A stretch of DNA of 34,700 nt from contig JAEUQZ010000002.1 of assembly GCA_016788965.1 (NCBI GenBank), forward strand, positions 1-34,700, written 5' to 3'. A program made the translations under genes and the position numbers. The DNA is from Anaerolineae bacterium. GTDB lineage: Bacteria > Chloroflexota > Anaerolineae > Aggregatilineales > Phototrophicaceae. Each line of letters begins with the position of its first letter. Within the stretch, counting starts at the first letter, position 1. The notes beneath the pieces are model-generated. The model did not search any database. It had not been told where the DNA came from and saw nothing but the letters and a program-made list of their open reading frames with translations. This document shows, in pieces, positions 1,174 to 10,765 of the stretch.

Positions 1174-2790
1174 CTACTTCTCGGCGTGCTGCACGGTGAC
1201 GGTCGAAACCTCGCCTTCGGGTTTCTGCCCGGCCAGCCCCATGACCGCAACCATGCGGTTGACGGCGGCGAGGTAGGCTTTGACGGAAGCCACGACAATA
1301 TCGCTGTCTGCGCCATAGCCGCCGAAGGAACGCTTCTCATCGTCAGCGGGCGAAATCCGCACCGTCACTTCGCCGAGGGCGTCGATGCCTTCGGTGACGC
1401 TGTGGACGCTGTACTCGATGAGCGTATTGGGCGCTTTGACGATGGCGTCAATGGCCTTATAGCTGGCATCCACCGGGCCACGTCCAACGGCGGCATGGAC
1501 GAACTCGTCGCCCGCGATGCTCCGCATCTTGACGGTGGCGGTGGGCATGCCCATTGTACCGCAAGTGACCTGGATGTCCGAGAGGCTGAAAAGCTCTTCC
1601 GGGCCGTGAAATTCGTCGGCGATCAGGGCTTCCAGGTCGGCATCGGTGACGGTTTTCTTGGCATCGGCCAATTCCTTGAAGCGCATGAAGACCTGGTTGA
1701 GGGCATCGCCCTCGATCTTGAAGCCCATCTCCTGCAAGCGCACTTTCAGGGCATGACGGCCGCTGTGCTTGCCGAGTACCAGACGGCTCTGATGCAGGCC
1801 GACGGTCTCCGGGGTCATGATCTCGAAGGTGCTGGCGTGCTTGAGCATCCCATCCTGATGGATGCCGGCCTCATGGGCGAAGGCGTTAGCGCCGACGATG
1901 GCTTTGTTGGGCTGGACGTTCATCCCGGTGTAGTTGCTGACCAGACGGCTGGTCTTCATGATCTCGCGGGTATTGATGTTCGTCCGCAAGGTGTAGTACT
2001 TGGAGCGCGTGTGCAGCGCCATGACGACTTCTTCCAGGCTGGTATTGCCGGCGCGTTCGCCGATGCCGTTGATGGTCACTTCAACCTGGCGCGCGCCAGC
2101 CAGGACACCGGAGAGGGTGTTGGCCGTCGCCAGACCCAGGTCATTATGGCAGTGTACCGACCAGATAATGCCGCTGTTGGGACCCGCGCCGGGGGTTTCG
2201 GCAATGAGGTTGCCGATGAACTCGCCCCACTCGACCGGGGTGGCATAGCCGACGGTATCGGGGATGTTCAAGGTGGTCGCGCCAGATTCGATGGCGGCGG
2301 CGCAGGCTTCGACGAGGAACTGCGGATCGGCGCGGGCTGCGTCCATCGGGCTGAACTCGACATCGGCACACAGGCTGCGGGCCAGTTTGACCGCTTTGCG
2401 GACGATTTCCAACGCCTGTTCATGCGTGATGTTGGAGATGTACTTGAGGTGAATATCGGACATGCCCAGAAAGGTGTGGATACGCGGTTTGGCGGCATCC
2501 TTGACGCCTTCCCAGCAAGTAAGGATGTCTTTTTCGACGGCGCGGGCGAGGCCGCAGATGGTCGGGCCATTGGCCGTCCCGACTTCACGGGCGATGCGCT
2601 GAACAGCGGCAAGATCATCAGGCGAGGCGGCGGGGAAACCGGCTTCGATGATGTCCACACCGAGGTGCGCCAACTGGCGAGCAATTTCAAGCTTCTCGGC
2701 GCTGGTCAGGGTCGCGCCGGGACTCTGTTCGCCGTCCCGCAGAGTGGTATCGAAAACTCGAACCAGTGTGTTATCAACGCCTGTGGACAT
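1174..2790 (-). CDS. leuA: 2-isopropylmalate synthase
   Basis: Condenses acetyl-CoA with 2-oxoisovalerate, the committed step to leucine. The 538-residue product has the full LeuA layout: [18 protein letters not shown] at residues 11-28 (Arg and Asp of the active site), [15 protein letters not shown] at 211-225 with the metal-binding Hx[12 protein letters not shown] at 244-254, GKHSGRHAL at 340-348, and a C-terminal leucine-sensing domain (about 400-520, including [16 protein letters not shown]). The frame is open further upstream, but homology begins at MSTGVDN, and that ATG has a good ribosome site (GAGGAAAGGA), so I start there. Presence of the regulatory domain implies feedback inhibition by leucine. 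It lies 20 bases after the GNAT gene in the ilv-leu operon. Homocitrate or citramalate synthase are relatives, but context and length favour LeuA. Confidence 0.96.
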
Positions 2791-2810
2791 AACCTGATGA
2801 TCCTTTCCTC

Positions 2811-3671
2811 TCACTGGTCGCCAAACCGGTAGTCGTCTATATCGGCGACCGGTTCGTAGCCAATTTCCTGATAGATGTGATTCGATGTCGGATTGCCGAG
2901 GTCGGTGAACAAGAAACAGTATTCGCGTCCCTGGTTCAGCAATTCCTGACTGAGCGCCGCGACACACGCGCCCGCATAGCCCTTGCGCCGATGCTCCGGC
3001 GGCGTGTAAACGGGGCCAACGCGGATGCCATGTGGGGTCGGGCCTGTGTATCCGGCCATCGAAACGGGAGTATCGTCTGTCACCCAGAAGTACAGACCGC
3101 GCATGTCGGGCTGGGCTGTCAGGTAGCGGTTTGTGATCTGTTCGGCTTGCTCAGTCGAAATGGGCGTCAGCGCATCGGCATGAAACCCCATGATCCAGTC
3201 GGTGATGAGCGCACGGTCGTCGGACTCCATCGGGCGCACTTCGCCGGGCACAGCGGCATGCAGCGATTTGACCTGTACCAACTGATAGACTCGCTGGGCC
3301 ATGTTGAGTTGAGCCGGCTGCCCCGATACCGCCGTCCAGCAGCGAGCAAAGTGGTCTGCCAGCCAGTTCGGAACATGAGCGCCCGGCAATGCTCCATAGA
3401 GCTTATAAACATCCTCAGCGATCAAGTTGAGCGCCGCCGGATGGGATGTATCCGACACGACCAGGCGATGCGGCGGCGTTCGCAGCGCGGCGGCGATCAC
3501 TGCGCCGCCGTCTTCGACGTAAGCCAGGTAGGGCGGTTCGGGATACTCGTTCGTTCGGATCAATGTGGCGCAGAGTCCGAGCATGAGGCAGTGCAGCGCC
3601 TCCCGCTTGAGCAGGAAAGGCTGCACACGCTCGGAGAAAACGCTCGCATCATCCAGACGAACGAGTTTCAT
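2811..3671 (-). CDS. GNAT-family N-acetyltransferase
   Basis: Predicted acyl-CoA-dependent N-acetyltransferase of 286 residues; substrate unknown. The C-terminal half is a GNAT fold: a strand resembling [16 protein letters not shown], then [20 protein letters not shown], which is motif A with the acetyl-CoA pyrophosphate loop (RRKGYA), and the late block [12 protein letters not shown] typical of the FR47-like subgroup. The N-terminal 130 residues are less conserved and may form a degenerate second GNAT-like unit. I choose the ATG (MKLVRL) over an adjacent in-frame GTG one codon earlier. It sits inside the ilv-leu operon, 17 bases after ilvC and 20 before leuA, so it is co-expressed with branched-chain amino acid synthesis; a role there is not evident from sequence. 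Confidence 0.85.
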
Positions 3672-3688
3672 CACTGCACCAATCCGGC

Positions 3689-4699
3689 TTAGGATTCCTG
3701 CTTGATGCGCTTGGCATTCAAGAAGGGCATCATATCGCGCAACTGCTCGCCGACCTGCTCGATAAGCAGGTCGTGTTCATGCTTGCGGCGTGGGGTAAAG
3801 TTCGGGCGGCCGACCTTGTTTTCGTGGATCCATTCACGGGCGAAGGTTCCATCCTGGATGCGATGCAGCACGCCCTGAAGTTCTTCCTTGACCATTCCCT
3901 CGATCTGATCGCCGACGACATAGCCGCCATACTCGGCGGTGTCGCTGACGCTGTACCACATGTAGCTCAGCCCGCCCTGATAGAGCAGGTCAACGATGAG
4001 CTTGAGTTCGTGCAGACACTCGAAGTAAGCGACTTCCGGCTGATAACCGGCTTTGACAAGGGTTTCAAAGGCCGCGCGGATCAAGGCGGTCACGCCGCCA
4101 CAGAGGATGACCTGTTCGCCGAACAGATCGGTTTCAGTCTCTTCCTTGAAGGTCGTTTCGATCACGCCGGCGCGGGTGCAGCCAATGGCTTTGGCGTAGG
4201 CCAGACCGAGGGCTTTAGCGCGGCCGGTGGCATCCTGATGGACGGCCAACAGGCCGGGCGTGCCGGCGCCTTCTTTGAAGACTTCACGGACGCGATGGCC
4301 GGGGGCCTTGGGCGCGACCATGGTGACATCGACGCTGGCCGGGGGCTTGATTTCGCCAAAGTGGATGTTGAAGCCGTGGGCAAACATCAACATGCTGCCG
4401 GGCTTGAGGTTGGGACCGATGTCCTGGGCATAGACCTCGGCCTGCTTGGTATCCGGGATCAGCACCATGACGACATCGGCCTGGCGGGTGGCGTCGGCGA
4501 CCGAGAGGACTTCAAGGCCATCGGCGCGAGCTTTGTCCGCGCTCTTGCTGCCCGGGTGCAGGCCAACAACGACCTTCATGCCGCTGTCTTTGGCGTTCAG
4601 GGCGTGGGCGTGTCCCTGGCTGCCATAGCCGATCACGGCGATGGTCTTGCCATTCAGCAGCGAAAGATCCGCATCTTTGTCGTAGTAAAGCGTTGCCAT
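3689..4699 (-). CDS. ilvC: ketol-acid reductoisomerase (NADP+), class I
   Basis: Isomerises and reduces acetolactate or acetohydroxybutyrate to the dihydroxy acids of the valine/isoleucine pathway. The 336-residue length is that of the short class I enzyme. [17 protein letters not shown] at residues 24-40 is the Rossmann loop; [10 protein letters not shown] at 47-56 is the cofactor-specificity loop, whose two serines are usual for NADPH. The Mg-binding and catalytic residues are visible: H108, D191 and E195 (ETDLFGEQ), E227 and E231 (ECLHE) and S252 (SDTAEYG). The ATG follows a clear GGAGTGA ribosome site. The operon holds ilvE, ilvB, ilvN and ilvC but not ilvD, which must be elsewhere. Confidence 0.98.
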
Positions 4700-4766: not shown

Positions 4767-5537
4767 TCAGATGGGGCACGCTTTGATGAGCGCCCCACGT
4801 AGCGAGAAACGATAATCGGCCTGAACATCCATCTCGGCGCGGACTTCGAGCGGAGCGCCATCGAAGAGCGCTTGGATGATGGCGACATTGGCCGCGGGAG
4901 TCGCCATCCGTTTCACCCAGGACTGGAAGTCCAGTGGAGGTTTCCAGGTGAACAACACCTCTGATCGGAAACCCGCCTGGGCGAGCATGGCCTCCCACTG
5001 GGCGACGGTGTGATCACGGACATGGGATGGATCGCGCAGGAGTTCGACGGTTTGCAGGAAGGTATCCAGCGCGGGTTCATCGGGCGACACGATGTCGCTC
5101 AGGAGAAATGCTCCACCGGGTTTCAGCACGCGGCGGAATTCCTGAAGCGCCAGCAGTGGATGCGGCCAGTGATGGGCACTGTAGCGAGATACTACCCCAT
5201 CGAAAGAGTCCGGCTCGAACGGCAGATGCTCGACATCGCCGCGCTGAGTCACCACGTTGGCGCAGCCACGCTCGGCGGCAAGCTGCTCGACCTGACGCAG
5301 CATCGGCTCGGTCAGATCGTAGGCAACGACTGCCTGTACGAAAGGCGCGACCGCCATGGCGGTATGTCCCGCGCCGCAGCCGGCATCGAGGACACGAGCG
5401 GCATTCATGCGCTGGACTTCGCGAGCAAGGCGCTGCAAGTCCTCACCGGCCGCATGAACGGCGCTGGCGCGATACTGCTCGGCGACTTGCCCAAACTGCT
5501 GCTGCACCGCAGCCTTTACATCCTGCATCGAAACCAC
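4767..5537 (-). CDS. class I SAM-dependent methyltransferase (UbiE/type 11-like)
   Basis: Soluble Rossmann-fold methyltransferase of about 256 residues; acceptor unknown. Motif I is VLDAGCGAGHTAMAVA (about residues 49-64), followed by an acidic residue ending strand 2 (VVAYDLTEPML), GDVEHLPFEPDSFDGVVSRYSAHHW (motif II/III region) and EFRRVLKPGGAFLLSDI (post-motif), the pattern of the UbiE/YcgJ group of Methyltransf_11. Start is uncertain: a GTG at 5537 with AGGA upstream, or an ATG three codons in (5528) with GGTGAG; I annotate the longer form. It sits 66 bases after ilvN and 67 before ilvC, so it belongs to the ilv-leu transcript, although no branched-chain amino acid step needs a methyltransferase. 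Confidence 0.88.
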   Translation of the reverse strand: MVSMQDVKAAVQQQFGQVAEQYRASAVHAAGEDLQRLAREVQRMNAARVLDAGCGAGHTAMAVAPFVQAVVAYDLTEPMLRQVEQLAAERGCANVVTQRGDVEHLPFEPDSFDGVVSRYSAHHWPHPLLALQEFRRVLKPGGAFLLSDIVSPDEPALDTFLQTVELLRDPSHVRDHTVAQWEAMLAQAGFRSEVLFTWKPPLDFQSWVKRMATPAANVAIIQALFDGAPLEVRAEMDVQADYRFSLRGALIKACPI

Positions 5538-5603: not shown

Positions 5604-6173
5604 CTAGACGCCGTAGACCTGATAGCCATTCGGACTGGCTTCCTGGAGAGCAACATTGGGTTCATAGTCGCTGTCCAGAATGCGAATGCCGCGCCCCATC
5701 GCCACGACGCCCGTCCGCACCATTTCCAGGATGCCAATCGGCTCCAGTTCGCGGATGAGCGATTCGACGATATCTTCCTGAGCGGCGATCTCCAGGATGG
5801 CGACCTTTGGCCCAATATCGACAATGCGGGCGGGATAGCGGTCACAGATGAGGGTGACGCTGTTGCGGGACTCCACGTCGTCGGTACGCACTTTGATGAG
5901 CGCCAGGTCGCGGCTGACGTTGGGTTCTTCCGACACCAACCGCACATCCATGACATTGACGAGTTTGAGCAGGTTGGCGGCGATCCGGCGGCCATTGCCC
6001 TTCTCGGCATCCACGACCATGGTCATGCGAGAGATATGGGGGTTGTGGGTGCGTCCGACAGTCAAGCTGTCGATGTTGAAGTTGCGGCGGCGGAGCATAC
6101 TGACCACGCGGTTCAGCACGCCGGGCTTGTTCTCTACCAATGCGACGAGTATCTGTTTGTTCACCTGAGTCAT
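5604..6173 (-). CDS. ilvN: acetolactate synthase regulatory (small) subunit
   Basis: Regulatory partner of the IlvB catalytic subunit; binds valine through its ACT domain and gives feedback inhibition. The 189-residue protein begins with the ACT fold (ILVALVENKPGVLNRVVSML, then RRRNFNIDSLTVG, residues 8-41) and continues into the small-subunit C-terminal domain, including SVTLICDRYPARIVDIG and LEMVRTGVVAMGRG. It is somewhat longer than the common 160-residue form, with a short divergent tail. Its ATG lies 2 bases after the ilvB stop, so the two are translationally coupled, which suits a stoichiometric complex. The symbol ilvH would also be acceptable. Confidence 0.96.
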   Translation of the reverse strand: MTQVNKQILVALVENKPGVLNRVVSMLRRRNFNIDSLTVGRTHNPHISRMTMVVDAEKGNGRRIAANLLKLVNVMDVRLVSEEPNVSRDLALIKVRTDDVESRNSVTLICDRYPARIVDIGPKVAILEIAAQEDIVESLIRELEPIGILEMVRTGVVAMGRGIRILDSDYEPNVALQEASPNGYQVYGV

Positions 6174-6175
6174 GA

Positions 6176-7873
6176 CTATTCCTCACCGGGTTTGGGGCGG
6201 CGCAGCATGGCATGGAGGTCTGCGCCCGCGGGAACCATTGGGTAAACGATCTCTTCCTTCTCGATGACGTATTCGATCAGCACCGGGCCTTCGTGGCTGC
6301 GGGCGAACTTCACCGACTCTTCGATCTGGTCGCGGTGAGTCACGCGCATGGCCGGAATGTCATAGGCTTCGGCGAGTTTGACGAAATCCGGGTTGAACAT
6401 GGGGGTCGCCTGATAACGCTCTTCGTAGAAGAACTCCTGCCATTGGCGCACCATGCCCAGGAAGGCGTTATTGAGAATGGCGATATTGACTTTGACGTTT
6501 TCCTGCTTGGCCGTTGCCAATTCGCACAGGGTCATCTGGAAGCCGCCATCGCCAACGACAGCCCAGACTTCTTCGTCAGGGCGACCGAATTTGGCGCCGA
6601 TGGCTGCCGGAAGGCCAAAGCCCATTGTCCCCAGGCCGCCGCTGGTAATCATAGTCATGGGGCGCTGGTGGGGATAATACTGGGCTTCGAGCATCTGGTG
6701 CTGGCCGACATCGCTGACGGTGATGGATTCGCCGCCGGTGTGCTTCCAGAGTTCGTTGATGACCTGCGCTCCCAGCAGTGTGTCTCCGGTGGAATGGTGC
6801 AGAATATCGCGCTCGTCGCCGTCTTCCTGCCACTCGCGAATTTGCCCAACCCACTCCCTGTGTTCCTGCTGCTGAACGCCCGGCAGGATTTGAGAGAGAA
6901 CGGCGCGGAGATCGCCCGCGATGCCGACATCGACGCGGACGTTCTTGTTGATCTCCGACGGGTCAATATCGACATGAATCTTCTTGGAGTTCGGTGAATA
7001 GGTTTTCAGGTTGCCCGTCACGCGATCATCGAAGCGCATCCCCAAAGCGATGAGCAGGTCGGCTTCCTGGATGGCAAAGTTGCAGGCAGCCGCGCCGTGC
7101 ATACCCATCATGCCGACGGTCAGCGGATGGCTTTCCGGGAGCGCACCTTTGCCGAGCAGAGTCAAGGTGACGGGAATCTGGGCGCGTTCGGCCAGTTCGC
7201 GGAGTTCCTGAGAGGCTCCCGACATCATGATCCCGTGGCCGGCCAGGATGACCGGGCGCTTGGCATTCTGGATCAGTTCCAACGCCTGAGCAACCTGCTC
7301 ATCCGAGGCCTTGCTGGGCGGGCGATAACCGCGCATGACGATCTCGCCTTCAGGATAGACGAACTCGGTTTTTTCGTTCTGCACATCCTTGGGGATGTCG
7401 ATCAGCACCGGCCCTGGACGCCCAGTGCGGGCGATGTGAAAGGCTTCCTTGACGATATAGGCCAGTTCGCGGACATCCGAGACCAGGTAGTTGTGCTTGG
7501 TGACCGGAATGGTGATACCGGTGATGTCGATTTCCTGGAAGGCATCGGAACCAATCGCGCCACGCGGAACCTGCCCGGTGATGCAGACAATCGGGGACGA
7601 GTCCATCATGGCTGTGCCGATCCCGGTGACGAGGTTGGTCGCGCCGGGGCCGCTGGTGGCGATGGCGACGCCGACCCGGCCAGTGGCACGCGCGTAACCA
7701 TCGGCCATGTGAGAAGCGCCCTGCTCATGGCGCACCAGCACATGGCGAATCTGAGGATACTTGGTCATGGCGTCGTAGGTCGGCAAGATCGCGCCGCCTG
7801 GATAGCCAAACATCACGTCCACGCCTTCGCGAAGAAGGCATTCCATGACAATTTCAGCGCCCGTCAATAACAT
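6176..7873 (-). CDS. ilvB: acetolactate synthase catalytic (large) subunit
   Basis: ThDP-dependent enzyme that condenses two pyruvates, or pyruvate with 2-oxobutyrate, at the first common step to valine, leucine and isoleucine. The 565 residues show the full biosynthetic AHAS form: the N-terminal PYR domain with GYPGGAILP and the catalytic Glu (E50 in RHEQGASHMADGYAR), a central FAD-type domain (ALGMRFDDRVTG about 276-287), and the C-terminal ThDP site GDGGFQMT...NN (441-469). LGMVRQWQEFFYEERY at 472-487 marks AHAS rather than the catabolic enzyme. A strong ribosome site, AAGGAGAGG, precedes the ATG. It is the second structural gene of the operon, 55 bases after ilvE. Confidence 0.98.
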   Translation of the reverse strand: MLLTGAEIVMECLLREGVDVMFGYPGGAILPTYDAMTKYPQIRHVLVRHEQGASHMADGYARATGRVGVAIATSGPGATNLVTGIGTAMMDSSPIVCITGQVPRGAIGSDAFQEIDITGITIPVTKHNYLVSDVRELAYIVKEAFHIARTGRPGPVLIDIPKDVQNEKTEFVYPEGEIVMRGYRPPSKASDEQVAQALELIQNAKRPVILAGHGIMMSGASQELRELAERAQIPVTLTLLGKGALPESHPLTVGMMGMHGAAACNFAIQEADLLIALGMRFDDRVTGNLKTYSPNSKKIHVDIDPSEINKNVRVDVGIAGDLRAVLSQILPGVQQQEHREWVGQIREWQEDGDERDILHHSTGDTLLGAQVINELWKHTGGESITVSDVGQHQMLEAQYYPHQRPMTMITSGGLGTMGFGLPAAIGAKFGRPDEEVWAVVGDGGFQMTLCELATAKQENVKVNIAILNNAFLGMVRQWQEFFYEERYQATPMFNPDFVKLAEAYDIPAMRVTHRDQIEESVKFARSHEGPVLIEYVIEKEEIVYPMVPAGADLHAMLRRPKPGEE

Positions 7874-7928: not shown

Positions 7929-8867
7929 TCAATCTCCCGAAACGGGCTGAGCCTGATGTACCTGGGTCAACCAGTTGTGACGGTCGGGAGCCTGACCGGA
8001 GGTGATGGCGAAAAACTGCTCTTGCACGGCCTGAGTGATGGGGCCACGTTTGCCAGCGCCGACCTTGATGCGATCCACTGAACGCACCGGAGTGATCTCG
8101 GCGGCTGTGCCGGTCATGAAGATTTCGTCGGCGATATAGAGCATATCGCGCGAGAGGGACTCATATCGAACGGGGTAGCCCAGATCGGACAGGAGCGTAA
8201 TGACCGTATCGCGGGTGATGCCCATCAGGATGGAAGAGCCTATGCCGGGGGTATAGACCACGCCGTTGAGGATCACGAAGATGTTCTCGCCCGCGCCTTC
8301 ACTGACGTTGCCATAGATATCCAAAGCGATGCCTTCGTTGAAGCCATTATCGTGGGCTTCCATGGTGATGAACTGGCTGTTGACGTACTGGCCGCCGATC
8401 TTCGCCAGTGATGAGTACGTATCTGGCGCGATGCGACGCCAGGAACTCACCTGCACATCGACGCCCTGCTCGATGGCTTCCGCGCCGAGGTAGCGGCCCC
8501 ACTCCATCGTAATGATGACCAGTTCGGTAGGATTCTGACGGCCTTCCACGCCGAGCTTGTTAGCCCCACGATAGAGCAGCGGACGAATGTAACAGGCGTC
8601 GTGGCCGTTCTTACGCACGGTCGAGAGAATGGCTTCGTTGATCTGCTCAGCGGTATAGGGTACATCGACGCGGGCGATCTTGGCGGAGTTCAGCAGACGC
8701 TGGGTGTGCGGTTGGAGCCGGAACACGGCCGGCCCCTGAGGTGTTGCATAGGCACGAACCCCCTCAAAAACACTCGACCCATAGTGCAGGGCGTGGGCCG
8801 TGACATGGACGGTCGCGTTTTCCCAGGCTACAAACTCGCCATTCTTCCAGATGAATTCAGCAGGCAT
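7929..8867 (-). CDS. ilvE: branched-chain amino acid aminotransferase
   Basis: PLP-dependent fold-IV transaminase that makes valine, leucine and isoleucine from their keto acids. The 312-residue product shows ALHYGSSVFEGVRAY at 26-40, the PLP lysine K156 in SSLAKIGGQYVNS, and EGIALDIYGNVSEGAGENIF around 177-196, all typical of the IlvE group rather than D-amino acid transaminase or 4-amino-4-deoxychorismate lyase. The frame stays open upstream, but homology starts at MPAEFIWKNG, whose ATG has GGAGAAAAG about ten bases ahead; I use that start. It is the first structural gene of the operon, and both terminator hairpins of the leader lie before it. Confidence 0.96.
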   Translation of the reverse strand: MPAEFIWKNGEFVAWENATVHVTAHALHYGSSVFEGVRAYATPQGPAVFRLQPHTQRLLNSAKIARVDVPYTAEQINEAILSTVRKNGHDACYIRPLLYRGANKLGVEGRQNPTELVIITMEWGRYLGAEAIEQGVDVQVSSWRRIAPDTYSSLAKIGGQYVNSQFITMEAHDNGFNEGIALDIYGNVSEGAGENIFVILNGVVYTPGIGSSILMGITRDTVITLLSDLGYPVRYESLSRDMLYIADEIFMTGTAAEITPVRSVDRIKVGAGKRGPITQAVQEQFFAITSGQAPDRHNWLTQVHQAQPVSGD

Positions 8868-9078
8868 GTGGTCTTTTCTCCAGTTCCTTAAATAAAAACG
8901 CTTTCCGGGGTTTGCGCGATGGAATTTCCCTGGAAAGCGTTTGATGCACGGCGTGTGACGGCTGCCACATGGGTTGACTGGCAGCGGAGTGCGATTGATG
9001 GCGCATGGCAGTCGCACAGGGAGAACTTCCCCGCTTGGAGGTGGCTGTTGGGACTGATTGTGCAGAGCGACCGGCCAT
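8857..9078 (-). CDS. small unrecognised ORF between the ilv attenuator and ilvE
   Basis: A 73-codon frame begins 29 bases after the attenuator stem with ATG preceded by AAGGATCATC. The same 11-base string AAGGATCATCA stands before leuA, so the ribosome site is believable. The frame crosses the hairpins of the leader and the second terminator and stops 8 bases inside ilvE. The product (start MAGRSAQSVPTATSKRG) is polar, basic and resembles no family I know. It may be a coupling peptide whose translation melts the terminator at 8896-8942, a decayed gene, or chance; coding is not proved. Confidence 0.35.
   Translation of the reverse strand: MAGRSAQSVPTATSKRGSSPCATAMRHQSHSAASQPMWQPSHAVHQTLSREIPSRKPRKAFLFKELEKRPHAC
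8896..8942 (-). terminator. second intrinsic terminator in the ilv leader, immediately upstream of ilvE
   Basis: On the minus strand AAACGCTTTCC pairs perfectly with GGAAAGCGTTT, and inside that GGG pairs with CCC after one mismatch; UUUUUAUUU follows directly. This has both stem and U-run of an intrinsic terminator. It lies only about 30 bases before the ilvE ATG with no room for another promoter, so it must be conditional or leaky. A possible antiterminator contact is UCCCUG (9022-9017) with CAGGGA (8932-8927), 6 pairs. Confidence 0.75.
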
Positions 9079-9106: not shown

Positions 9107-9131
9107 AAAAGCCCCCGGCTTGGGGGCTTTT
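9107..9131 (-). terminator. ilv attenuator terminator hairpin
   Basis: AAAAGCCCCC pairs with GGGGGCUUUU across a five-base loop, a ten-pair stem with five consecutive G-C pairs, followed by CGUUUCC on the minus strand. It lies 45 bases after the stop of the leader peptide. The stem would also stop transcripts that read through from argH. Confidence 0.85.
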
Positions 9132-9175
9132 GTGTTTCTGGTATCTTGCAGACTAGCTGTTCGCGCCCAAGCCGA
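9115..9175 (-). promoter_or_regulatory. antiterminator pairing of the ilv attenuator
   Basis: UCGGCUUGGG (9175-9166), which begins right after the leader stop codon, can pair over ten positions (one G-U) with CCCAAGCCGG (9124-9115). The latter comprises part of the 5' arm, the loop and the start of the 3' arm of the terminator, so the two structures exclude each other. An alternative 1:2 pairing is available between GAUUAG in the leader coding region and CUAAUC (9179-9174). This is the classical segment 1-4 logic of amino acid attenuation. Confidence 0.75.
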
Positions 9176-9247
9176 TTAGAACTCGTTCTTAAGGACGAGT
9201 ACGATGAGGCTAATAAGGCTAATCAGGGCAGAATTCAGCTTGGACAT
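9176..9247 (-). CDS. ilv operon leader peptide (branched-chain-residue rich)
   Basis: A 23-residue frame from ATG to TAA, reading MSKLNSA, then LISLISLIVLVL, then KNEF. Eleven of 23 residues are Leu, Ile or Val, and ten of twelve within the run, so ribosome movement would report charged tRNA for all three end products. Its end overlaps the hairpin ACUCGU/ACGAGU, and the antiterminator strand begins 1 base after the stop codon. An in-frame ATG ten codons upstream (9277) would sit nearly at the predicted transcription start; the inner ATG, preceded by GAGAGAG, is preferred. Function resembles ilvL/ilvB leaders of enterobacteria and actinobacteria, but the sequence itself is not one I recognise. 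Confidence 0.85.
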   Translation of the reverse strand: MSKLNSALISLISLIVLVLKNEF

Positions 9248-9286
9248 CGCTCTCTCGTTGAGCCTCTCTCGATTCATACGCCCAAT

Positions 9287-9315
9287 AGGTTAACGAGCTT
9301 CCCTCAAGTTGTCAA
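9287..9315 (-). promoter_or_regulatory. sigma-70-type promoter of the ilv-leu operon
   Basis: TTGACA (9315-9310), 17 bases, TAACCT (9292-9287). The -35 box is a perfect consensus and the spacing is optimal; the -10 keeps the first two and last positions. The predicted start is near 9280, giving a leader of about 410 bases before ilvE. The promoter begins 20 bases after the argH stop. Confidence 0.7.
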
Positions 9316-9334: not shown

Positions 9335-10765
9335 TCAAGGTTCGCCAGATTCGTTCAAGTTGACCAGCGGCGTTTGTGCGGGATGCACATCTGGATGATC
9401 GTCCATCCAACGATGGGCGGCTTCAAGCTGGGCGCGGACGGCATCCGGGGCTGTGCCACCAGTGGCGCGGCGCTGGGATACGGACGACTCGAAGTTGAAG
9501 ACCTGGGCGACATCGGCCTCGAAGAGGTCGGAGACGGAACGCAACACTTCCAGCGGGAGGCGCGACAGGGCACTCCCCTGCTCGGCCGCGAGGCGCACCA
9601 ACTGGCCGACGGCGTGATGGGCCTGACGGAACGGAAGACCACGCCGCACCAAGTAGTCGGCGAGATCGGTCGCCAGCAGGTCTTCGCCCAATGCGGCACG
9701 CATCCGGTCGGCATTCAGGCGCAGGGTACGGATGATGGCTGTGACCACGGGAAGCAGGCGCGTGAGGGTATCGAACGAGTCGAAGAGCGCCTCCTTGTCT
9801 TCCTGCAAATCCTTGTTGTAGGCGGTGGGCAGCCCTTTGAGGGTGGTCAGCAAACCGGTCAGATTGCCGATCAAGCGGCCTGCCTTGCCGCGCGCGAGTT
9901 CCATCGGATCGGCATTGCGCTTCTGGGGCATGAGGCTGGAGCCGGTGCTATAGCGGTCGTTCAGGGTGATATAGCCGAACTGCGGGTTGCTGTAGAGGAC
10001 AATATCCTCGCCGAGGCGACTCAGATGGGTTCCGAGCAGTGCCATCACGAAGAGGGACTCGGCCACGAAATCGCGGTCACTGACGGCATCAAGGCTGTTC
10101 TGGGTCACGCTGGTCAGGCCGAGGTCATGAGCCAACTGGTCACGATCCACGGCAAAGGGCGTCCCAGCCAACGCGCCGGCTCCCAACGGAGATACCGCCG
10201 CACGGCGGTGGGCATCGGCCAGGCGGTCGCGGTCACGGGCCAGCATCCAGAAGAAGCTCAGGAGCCAATGGGCGGCGGTGATCGGTTGGGCGGGCTGCAA
10301 GTGGGTATAGCCGGGCATGAGGGTCAAGATGTGCTGCTCGGCCTGAGCGATGAGCGCCGACTGCAAAGCCGCGATGCGCCCGTCCAATTCGGCGAGCGCA
10401 TCGAGCGTCCAAAGGCGGAAATCGGTCGCCACCTGGTCGTTGCGGCTGCGACCGGTATGGAGTTTGCCGCCGACCGAACCGACCAACTCGGTCAGGCGGC
10501 GCTCGACGGCGGTGTGAATGTCCTCATCGGCAGGCTGAAGCGCGAACGTCCCGGACTCGAATTCGGCCAGGACAGAACGCAGCCCCTTGACCAACACCTC
10601 AGCTTCAGCCGCGGTGATGATGCCCGCACGGGCTATGGCCTGGGCATAGGCGATGCTGCCGGCAATGTCCTGGCGGAACATGTGGCGGTCGAAGCCAATG
10701 CTGTCGTTGAGGGCACGCAGATCATCATCGGTCGGTTCGGAAAAGCGGCCACCCCATAAGGTCAT
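9335..10765 (-). CDS. argH: argininosuccinate lyase
   Basis: Last step of arginine synthesis: argininosuccinate to arginine and fumarate. The 476-residue protein of the fumarase/aspartase superfamily shows LWGGRFSEPTDD at the N-terminus, TGRSRNDQVATD (104-115), the histidine of GYTHLQPAQP (152-161), and the flexible signature loop GSSLMPQKRNADPMELARGK from 275, with the catalytic serine. The frame is open upstream into argG, but homology starts at MTLWGG and that ATG has GCGAGG ahead of it. It starts 13 bases after argG ends, so the two form an argGH unit. No terminator is seen between argH and the ilv promoter, so read-through into the ilv leader is likely. Confidence 0.97.
   Translation of the reverse strand: MTLWGGRFSEPTDDDLRALNDSIGFDRHMFRQDIAGSIAYAQAIARAGIITAAEAEVLVKGLRSVLAEFESGTFALQPADEDIHTAVERRLTELVGSVGGKLHTGRSRNDQVATDFRLWTLDALAELDGRIAALQSALIAQAEQHILTLMPGYTHLQPAQPITAAHWLLSFFWMLARDRDRLADAHRRAAVSPLGAGALAGTPFAVDRDQLAHDLGLTSVTQNSLDAVSDRDFVAESLFVMALLGTHLSRLGEDIVLYSNPQFGYITLNDRYSTGSSLMPQKRNADPMELARGKAGRLIGNLTGLLTTLKGLPTAYNKDLQEDKEALFDSFDTLTRLLPVVTAIIRTLRLNADRMRAALGEDLLATDLADYLVRRGLPFRQAHHAVGQLVRLAAEQGSALSRLPLEVLRSVSDLFEADVAQVFNFESSVSQRRATGGTAPDAVRAQLEAAHRWMDDHPDVHPAQTPLVNLNESGEP

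Follow-up and report, generated by a model that had tools for sequence, protein, structure and literature searches.

What kind of leader controls the branched-chain amino acid operon in this DNA, and how much of the sequence ahead of ilvE takes part in the control? The window analysed here is the whole stretch of 34,700 nucleotides. An earlier note had proposed that positions 9107 to 9315 hold a complete ribosome-mediated attenuator of an ilvE-first operon, probably outside the Enterobacteria and Actinobacteria and possibly of an undescribed class. The host is a member of the Chloroflexota, class Anaerolineae, known from a metagenome-assembled genome of an uncultured organism, and thus does lie outside those groups; the closest relatives that carry a name are Anaerolineae/Chloroflexi MAGs. 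The operon is larger than had been stated. It runs in the order ilvE-ilvB-ilvH-(methyltransferase)-ilvC-(GNAT)-leuA-leuC up to the contig end (Table 1), the ilvE, ilvB, ilvH, ilvC and leuA names coming from family models and the methyltransferase, GNAT and leuC names from sequence reading. Since ilv and leu genes share one operon, a single leader would govern the synthesis of Ile, Val and Leu jointly, which fits the mixed control codons of the leader.

Table 1. Leader features and genes of the ilv-leu operon, in window positions.
Feature	Coordinates	Strand	Basis
Promoter: -35 TTGACA (9315-9310), 17 nt, -10 TAACCT (9292-9287)	9287..9315	(-)	sequence; conserved in relatives
Leader peptide 1, MSKLNSALISLISLIVLVLKNEF, 23 codons, control codons Ile/Leu/Val	9176..9247 (ATG 9247, TAA 9176)	(-)	sequence; I/L/V-run frame in relatives
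Segment 1, GCGATGTCCAAGCTGA, at leader start, pairs with segment 2 (protector or anti-antiterminator)	about 9249-9235	(-)	MFE fold
Segment 2, antiterminator strand TCGGCTTGGG, directly after leader stop	9166..9175	(-)	10-position pairing; covariation
Terminator 1 (segments 3 and 4), AAAAGCCCCC-AAGCC-GGGGGCTTTT	9107..9131	(-)	fold; U-rich tail to 9102
Segment 3, CCCAAGCCGG, in terminator 1	9124-9115	(-)	pairs with segment 2 over 10 positions
ORF2, 73 codons, SD-like GAAGGA, V9 the only I/L/V codon until 15 nt from hairpin 2	8857..9078	(-)	sequence; relatives
Hairpin 2, intrinsic-terminator-like, AAACGCTTTCC-(25 nt)-GGAAAGCGTTT + TTATTT	8890..8942	(-)	arms: left 8942-8932, right 8906-8896
ilvE, branched-chain aminotransferase, first structural gene	7929..8867	(-)	NCBIfam TIGR01122, 408.9 bits
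ilvB, acetolactate synthase large subunit	6176..7873	(-)	TIGR00118
ilvH/ilvN, acetolactate synthase small subunit	5604..6173	(-)	TIGR00119
Methyltransferase-like gene, embedded in the operon	4767..5537	(-)	ORF and sequence reading
ilvC, ketol-acid reductoisomerase	3689..4699	(-)	TIGR00465
GNAT-like acetyltransferase gene, embedded in the operon	2811..3674	(-)	ORF and sequence reading
leuA, 2-isopropylmalate synthase	ORF 1174..2967; HMM match 1258-2763	(-)	TIGR00973, 667 bits
leuC-like, cut by contig end	1..1077	(-)	ORF and sequence reading

The promoter, the 23-residue leader, the antiterminator strand after its stop, the terminator and the ten-position pairing named in the earlier note were all found, in that order, on the minus strand. 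A strict consensus scan did not report the promoter at 9287-9315 because its -10 is weak. In the window fold, segments 1 and 2 form the usual 1:2 hairpin, which completes the set of 1:2, 2:3 and 3:4 pairings, and the fold of the whole leader has z = -2.2. Leader frame, terminator and antiterminator come together at a single place in the window and nowhere in 2.08 Mb of first-order Markov shuffles. Related loci, 1.85 Mb in total, contain the combination immediately ahead of ilvE in 57 cases and at one other place, which is again a real leader. The interval 9107-9315 was correctly placed and is too short: the regulatory sequence extends past 9107 up to the ilvE start at 8867, and a small open reading frame, ORF2, and a second hairpin lie in between.

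Alignment with related genomes, the check that had been suggested, bore out the attenuator. An I/L/V-run leader frame precedes ilvE in 75 distinct loci, with widely differing peptides. All relatives (75/75) have a promoter of the form TTGAC. N16-18 TANNNT at 20-60 nt ahead of the leader ATG, compared with 0.5% in shuffles. A terminator follows in 75/75, spaced 23-51 nt from the leader stop; the automatic search found 74 and that of L029 was read by eye, as was terminator 1 in L063 and L065, where the search had chosen hairpin 2. In most relatives segment 2 starts 0-2 nt past the leader stop and its partner is made up of terminator arm and loop. This 2:3 pairing is kept in 93.8% of cells of a 57-sequence MAFFT alignment, and it covaries: 5 of 8 pairs show double changes, in 10 cells altogether, a level reached in 0/500 shuffles. 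Relatives were where the leader or its pairing might have been lost; leader, promoter and compensated pairing are all kept there. The 1:2 pairing is weakly conserved (mean 0.67 vs 0.57 for the null). A MAFFT-based count of the pairs in terminator 1 was left out of the evidence, as it is blurred where GCCCCC and GCCTCCC forms are offset by one base. In three loci (L021, L047, L056) the leader stop has moved, which puts the antiterminator strand within the leader frame, with the pairing still kept. Codon choice in leader 1, taken over the window and its relatives, is also biased: CTT makes up 43% of Leu codons vs 8% in genes, ATT 66% of Ile codons vs 23%, and CTG is avoided. The preferred codons are perhaps those whose tRNAs discharge first.

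An RNA model of stage 1, the promoter-to-terminator unit, matches 92 of the 98 genomes of the family. The IlvE proteins encoded behind such a leader form one clade (support 100/98), and the leader is absent from the sampled outgroups. One locus of this kind (L044, JAHHHY010000001.1) is titled Pleurocapsa minor, a cyanobacterium, and has a Chloroflexota ilv locus; it is likely a mislabelled MAG. Within the genome of the window the model found no further attenuator of this design, the present site being the sole one; the next-best match was rejected as a plain gene-end terminator. Rfam returned no family at gathering score, the best leader on this strand being Phe_leader at 20.1 vs 55 bits, and the T-box covariance model had no match, so a T-box, a riboswitch or a known leader family was ruled out by this search. 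Judged by its sequence, stage 1 is a classical ribosome-mediated attenuator of the textbook 1:2:3:4 kind. As for an undescribed class, the lineage is new and Rfam has no family for it; the predicted mechanism is textbook, and 9107-9315 therefore extends a known kind of attenuator to a new lineage without founding a class of its own.

Leaders built alike, with compensated pairing, also occur in other Anaerolineae families, before ilvD (L185) and before ilvB-ilvH-ilvC (L189), where the compensated strand pairs of the ilvD and ilvB leaders are GGTTGGGAGG/CCTCCCAACC and CTGTTGGG/CCCAACAG. In another Anaerolineae family a Leu-rich leader, MTPKTLLNLLSNLLLLTRGH, and an attenuator precede a leuA-like gene (L184, G325:C261). 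Leader-peptide attenuation, as predicted from these matches, is family-wide in this Chloroflexota family and scattered through the class. Two tandem I/L/V leaders lie before an ilvD-like gene at about 170-520 of JAFGTJ010000497.1 (L094), each with its own compensated antiterminator and terminator, GGTTGGGA/TCCCAACC and GGGTTGGG/CCCAACCC. Three further I/L/V leaders with attenuator structure (L182, L183, L190) precede genes, e.g. MTDCIRFVPEDHRSPAACQ..., that are not obviously amino acid enzymes. Some class-level matches of the model were rejected as plain terminators (L150, after a tatA-like gene, L186-L188 and L191).

The distance from terminator 1 to ilvE falls into two classes, 31-121 nt and 184-351 nt. 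The long linkers hold a small ORF that begins just past terminator 1, followed by a second terminator-like hairpin. Of the 75 loci, 49 have this ORF2 module, counting L019 with its GTG start, and 26 leaders are without ORF2; the module lies deep in the family tree, and was probably ancestral there and lost several times. Hairpin 2 usually reads ACGCGCTTTCC...GGAAAGCGCGT followed by T, lies 25-70 nt before ilvE in most relatives, and usually contains the ORF2 stop in its loop. The window copy differs from most relatives in that ORF2 has no stop in the loop, reads through hairpin 2 and ends in an 11-nt overlap with the start of ilvE. The arms vary with the pairing kept, as in TTTCC/GGAAA, TTGCC/GGCAA, CCTGTG/CACAGG and CCTATCGTC/GACGATAGG. 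Shine-Dalgarno sites of ORF2 are slightly above chance (57% vs 40%), and its dN/dS is near 1 in some clades.

The most striking property of ORF2 is the near absence of the three amino acids that leader 1 is rich in. In 38 representative ORF2 sequences, counting the residues before hairpin 2, 59 of 1606 are I, L or V (3.7%), compared with 22.9% in the genes of the window. The other two frames hold 20.9% and 14.4%, and shuffled nucleotides give 15.8 +/- 0.8%. The most depleted residues are I (0.07x), V (0.17x) and L (0.21x); F, Y and W are at about 1x, and M (2.2x) and C (4.8x) are enriched. The depletion has a sharp end. From -60 to -16 nt of hairpin 2 there are 5 I/L/V residues in 570, at -15 nt there are 8 in 38, the level is 21% at both -15 and -12 nt, and it is 16/37 at +6 and +15. 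The Fisher p of 6e-27 for this edge is only nominal because the ORF2 sequences are related. The ORF2 starts were initially chosen by hand; a composition-blind automatic rule gave the same frame in 37 of 38 and an I/L/V content of 3.4% vs 17.9%, the ORF2 frame being the lowest of the three in 38/38. Six later loci that had not been used in pattern discovery gave 6/224 (2.7%) vs 18/78 (23.1%).

These parts, their conservation, the covariation of the antiterminator and the blank with its sharp edge are read directly from the sequences and their comparison, and together they probably make up a two-stage attenuator that controls a single Ile/Leu/Val operon, with the second stage opposite in sense to the first. 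In stage 1 (9315-9107), a shortage of Ile-, Leu- or Val-tRNA would stall the ribosome in LISLISLIVLVL over segment 1; segments 2 and 3 would then pair and transcription would continue. When the three amino acids are plentiful, the ribosome would reach the stop beside segment 2 and terminator 1 would form. Stage 2 (9078-8890) would work in the manner of pyrBI, in that a ribosome on ORF2 must arrive at hairpin 2 to prevent its forming. A terminator can work only if at least 10-15 nt of RNA are free from the ribosomal A site to the base of the hairpin, and when a stop codon was shifted so that it lay 5 bp ahead of a terminator, termination fell from ~90% to <10% (PMC4824070). In the pyrL leader, a ribosome that stalls upstream of the terminator makes termination more frequent (PMC5021804). 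A ribosome stalled at -15 nt, the position of the edge, would just start to hinder hairpin 2. Most simply, branched-chain stalls would have been selected against at every place where they leave hairpin 2 free; since ORF2 avoids I, L and V at those places, branched-chain starvation would not halt transcription there. If other amino acids ran low, or if translation were poor, hairpin 2 would shut the operon off. Expression would thus require two things at once, a lack of branched-chain amino acids and otherwise working translation.

A different view of hairpin 2 is that it serves as another branched-chain sensor: the ribosome crosses the I/L/V-free runway, which this view shares with the two-stage reading above, stalls on the first I/L/V codons of the 5' arm and masks the arm, and when Ile, Leu and Val are plentiful it reaches the stop in the loop and departs, so that terminator 2 can form. 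The residues do return exactly at -15 nt and exceed 40% at +6 and +15, as in the ORF2 ends DALSDIYN and LSQTLVLCHLLA, and actinobacterial ilvB leaders likewise have I/L/V runs that overlap the terminator (PMC1262725). Over hairpin 2 as a whole, however, I/L/V is near the gene average (16-21% per bin) rather than enriched, and the two peaks owe most of their height to one related peptide family and to the conserved arm GCGCTTTCC. Some ORF2 copies (L227, L012) have no I/L/V on hairpin 2 at all, and a ribosome finishing in the loop would mask the arm too, which leaves such a sensor unlikely. It is less likely still that stage 1 alone regulates, with ORF2 a small protein made in branched-chain starvation and hairpin 2 an ordinary intercistronic element. 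Adaptation of protein composition to starvation is a known idea, and one subclade conserves PTSPWTE...PTHDALSDIYN with dN/dS of 0.1-0.5. The ban on I/L/V, however, ends at a fixed distance before hairpin 2 instead of spanning the whole protein, and it is kept in subclades that have no recognisable common sequence. I/L/V is normal in the operon genes of the window, and F and M, the other NUN residues, are not depleted in ORF2. A conserved protein function was rejected, as ORF2 has no Pfam or NCBIfam match.

Chance would require that an open intergenic frame had been picked for its composition. I/L/V-poor ORFs of 36 codons do occur elsewhere, at about 0.07 per kb, and the window holds five others of ORF2 length. 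A single such ORF was therefore rejected as proof of stage 2: the lone window copy proves nothing and the claim rests on the family. There, the density before ilvE is ten times higher, the composition-blind rule and the validation loci agree, and the arms of hairpin 2 change with the pairing kept, which makes chance highly improbable. The least credible of the alternatives concerns stage 1, whose terminator might just end the upstream argGH transcript, the leader frame being incidental. The argH gene does end at 9335 on the same strand; the promoter between argH and the leader is conserved in all 75 loci, the content of the leader frame is conserved and the antiterminator covaries, all of which argue against it.

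For the preferred reading of two stages opposite in sense, the evidence leans towards a natural two-input gate built of two serial attenuators, with ORF2 kept blank up to ribosome-footprint distance. If so, the gate would let a single promoter distinguish specific from general starvation with no protein regulator. The second module would be a new regulatory logic, an attenuator defined by the codons it lacks, and the -15 nt edge would be the footprint, at genome level, that ribosomes leave by acting on terminators. "Blank" ORFs before terminators would then offer a searchable signature for other operons.

The classical ribosome-mediated ilv/leu attenuators are those of E. coli ilvGMEDA, ilvBN and leuABCD. 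The present locus resembles them in its Ile/Leu/Val leader codons, its segments 1-4, the competition of antiterminator and intrinsic terminator, and its branched-chain operon. Unlike them, it belongs to the Chloroflexota, encodes an unrelated peptide, stands before an ilvE-first operon that includes leuA and leuC, and is followed by ORF2 and a second terminator. The actinobacterial ilvB/ilvBNC leaders, for which a three-hairpin model exists in C. glutamicum, likewise place an I/L/V-rich leader before an ilv operon; their I/L/V runs overlap the terminator, whereas the Chloroflexota antiterminator strand directly follows the leader stop, and no I/L/V-blank second ORF was found described for them (PMC1262725, PMC11857589, PMC10272879). 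The S. aureus ilv leader is reported to have a Leu-rich attenuator peptide before a branched-chain operon, in a host from the Firmicutes and not the Chloroflexota (PMC5794164). A 2010 listing of leader-peptide attenuation names Proteobacteria, Actinobacteria and some Firmicutes (PMC2965389). The literature search, whose coverage did not include a 2010 cross-phylum attenuation review, found no earlier report from the Chloroflexota. Stage 1, as read from its sequence, is a sound classical attenuator in a lineage for which that search gave no earlier report.

Stage 2 is closer to other systems. In E. coli pyrBI, the small pyrL ORF runs into an intrinsic terminator, and a close ribosome suppresses termination while a distant one permits it (PMC5021804, PMC3641672). 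ORF2 likewise runs into or through an intrinsic-terminator-like hairpin; the likeness is one of layout, and membership in the pyrBI type is not claimed. The difference is that pyrL senses UTP via polymerase pausing, whereas for ORF2 no pause signal is known, and its peculiarity is the lack of three specific amino acids. The Salmonella mgtCBR leader also carries two short ORFs and two attenuators in tandem; its signals, ATP and proline, are additive and act without obvious intrinsic terminators (PMC3641672). Here, in contrast, two intrinsic terminators stand in series, and ORF2 is blank for the very signal that leader 1 reads. It is this second stage that goes beyond the classical attenuator, and it is the surprising part of the locus.
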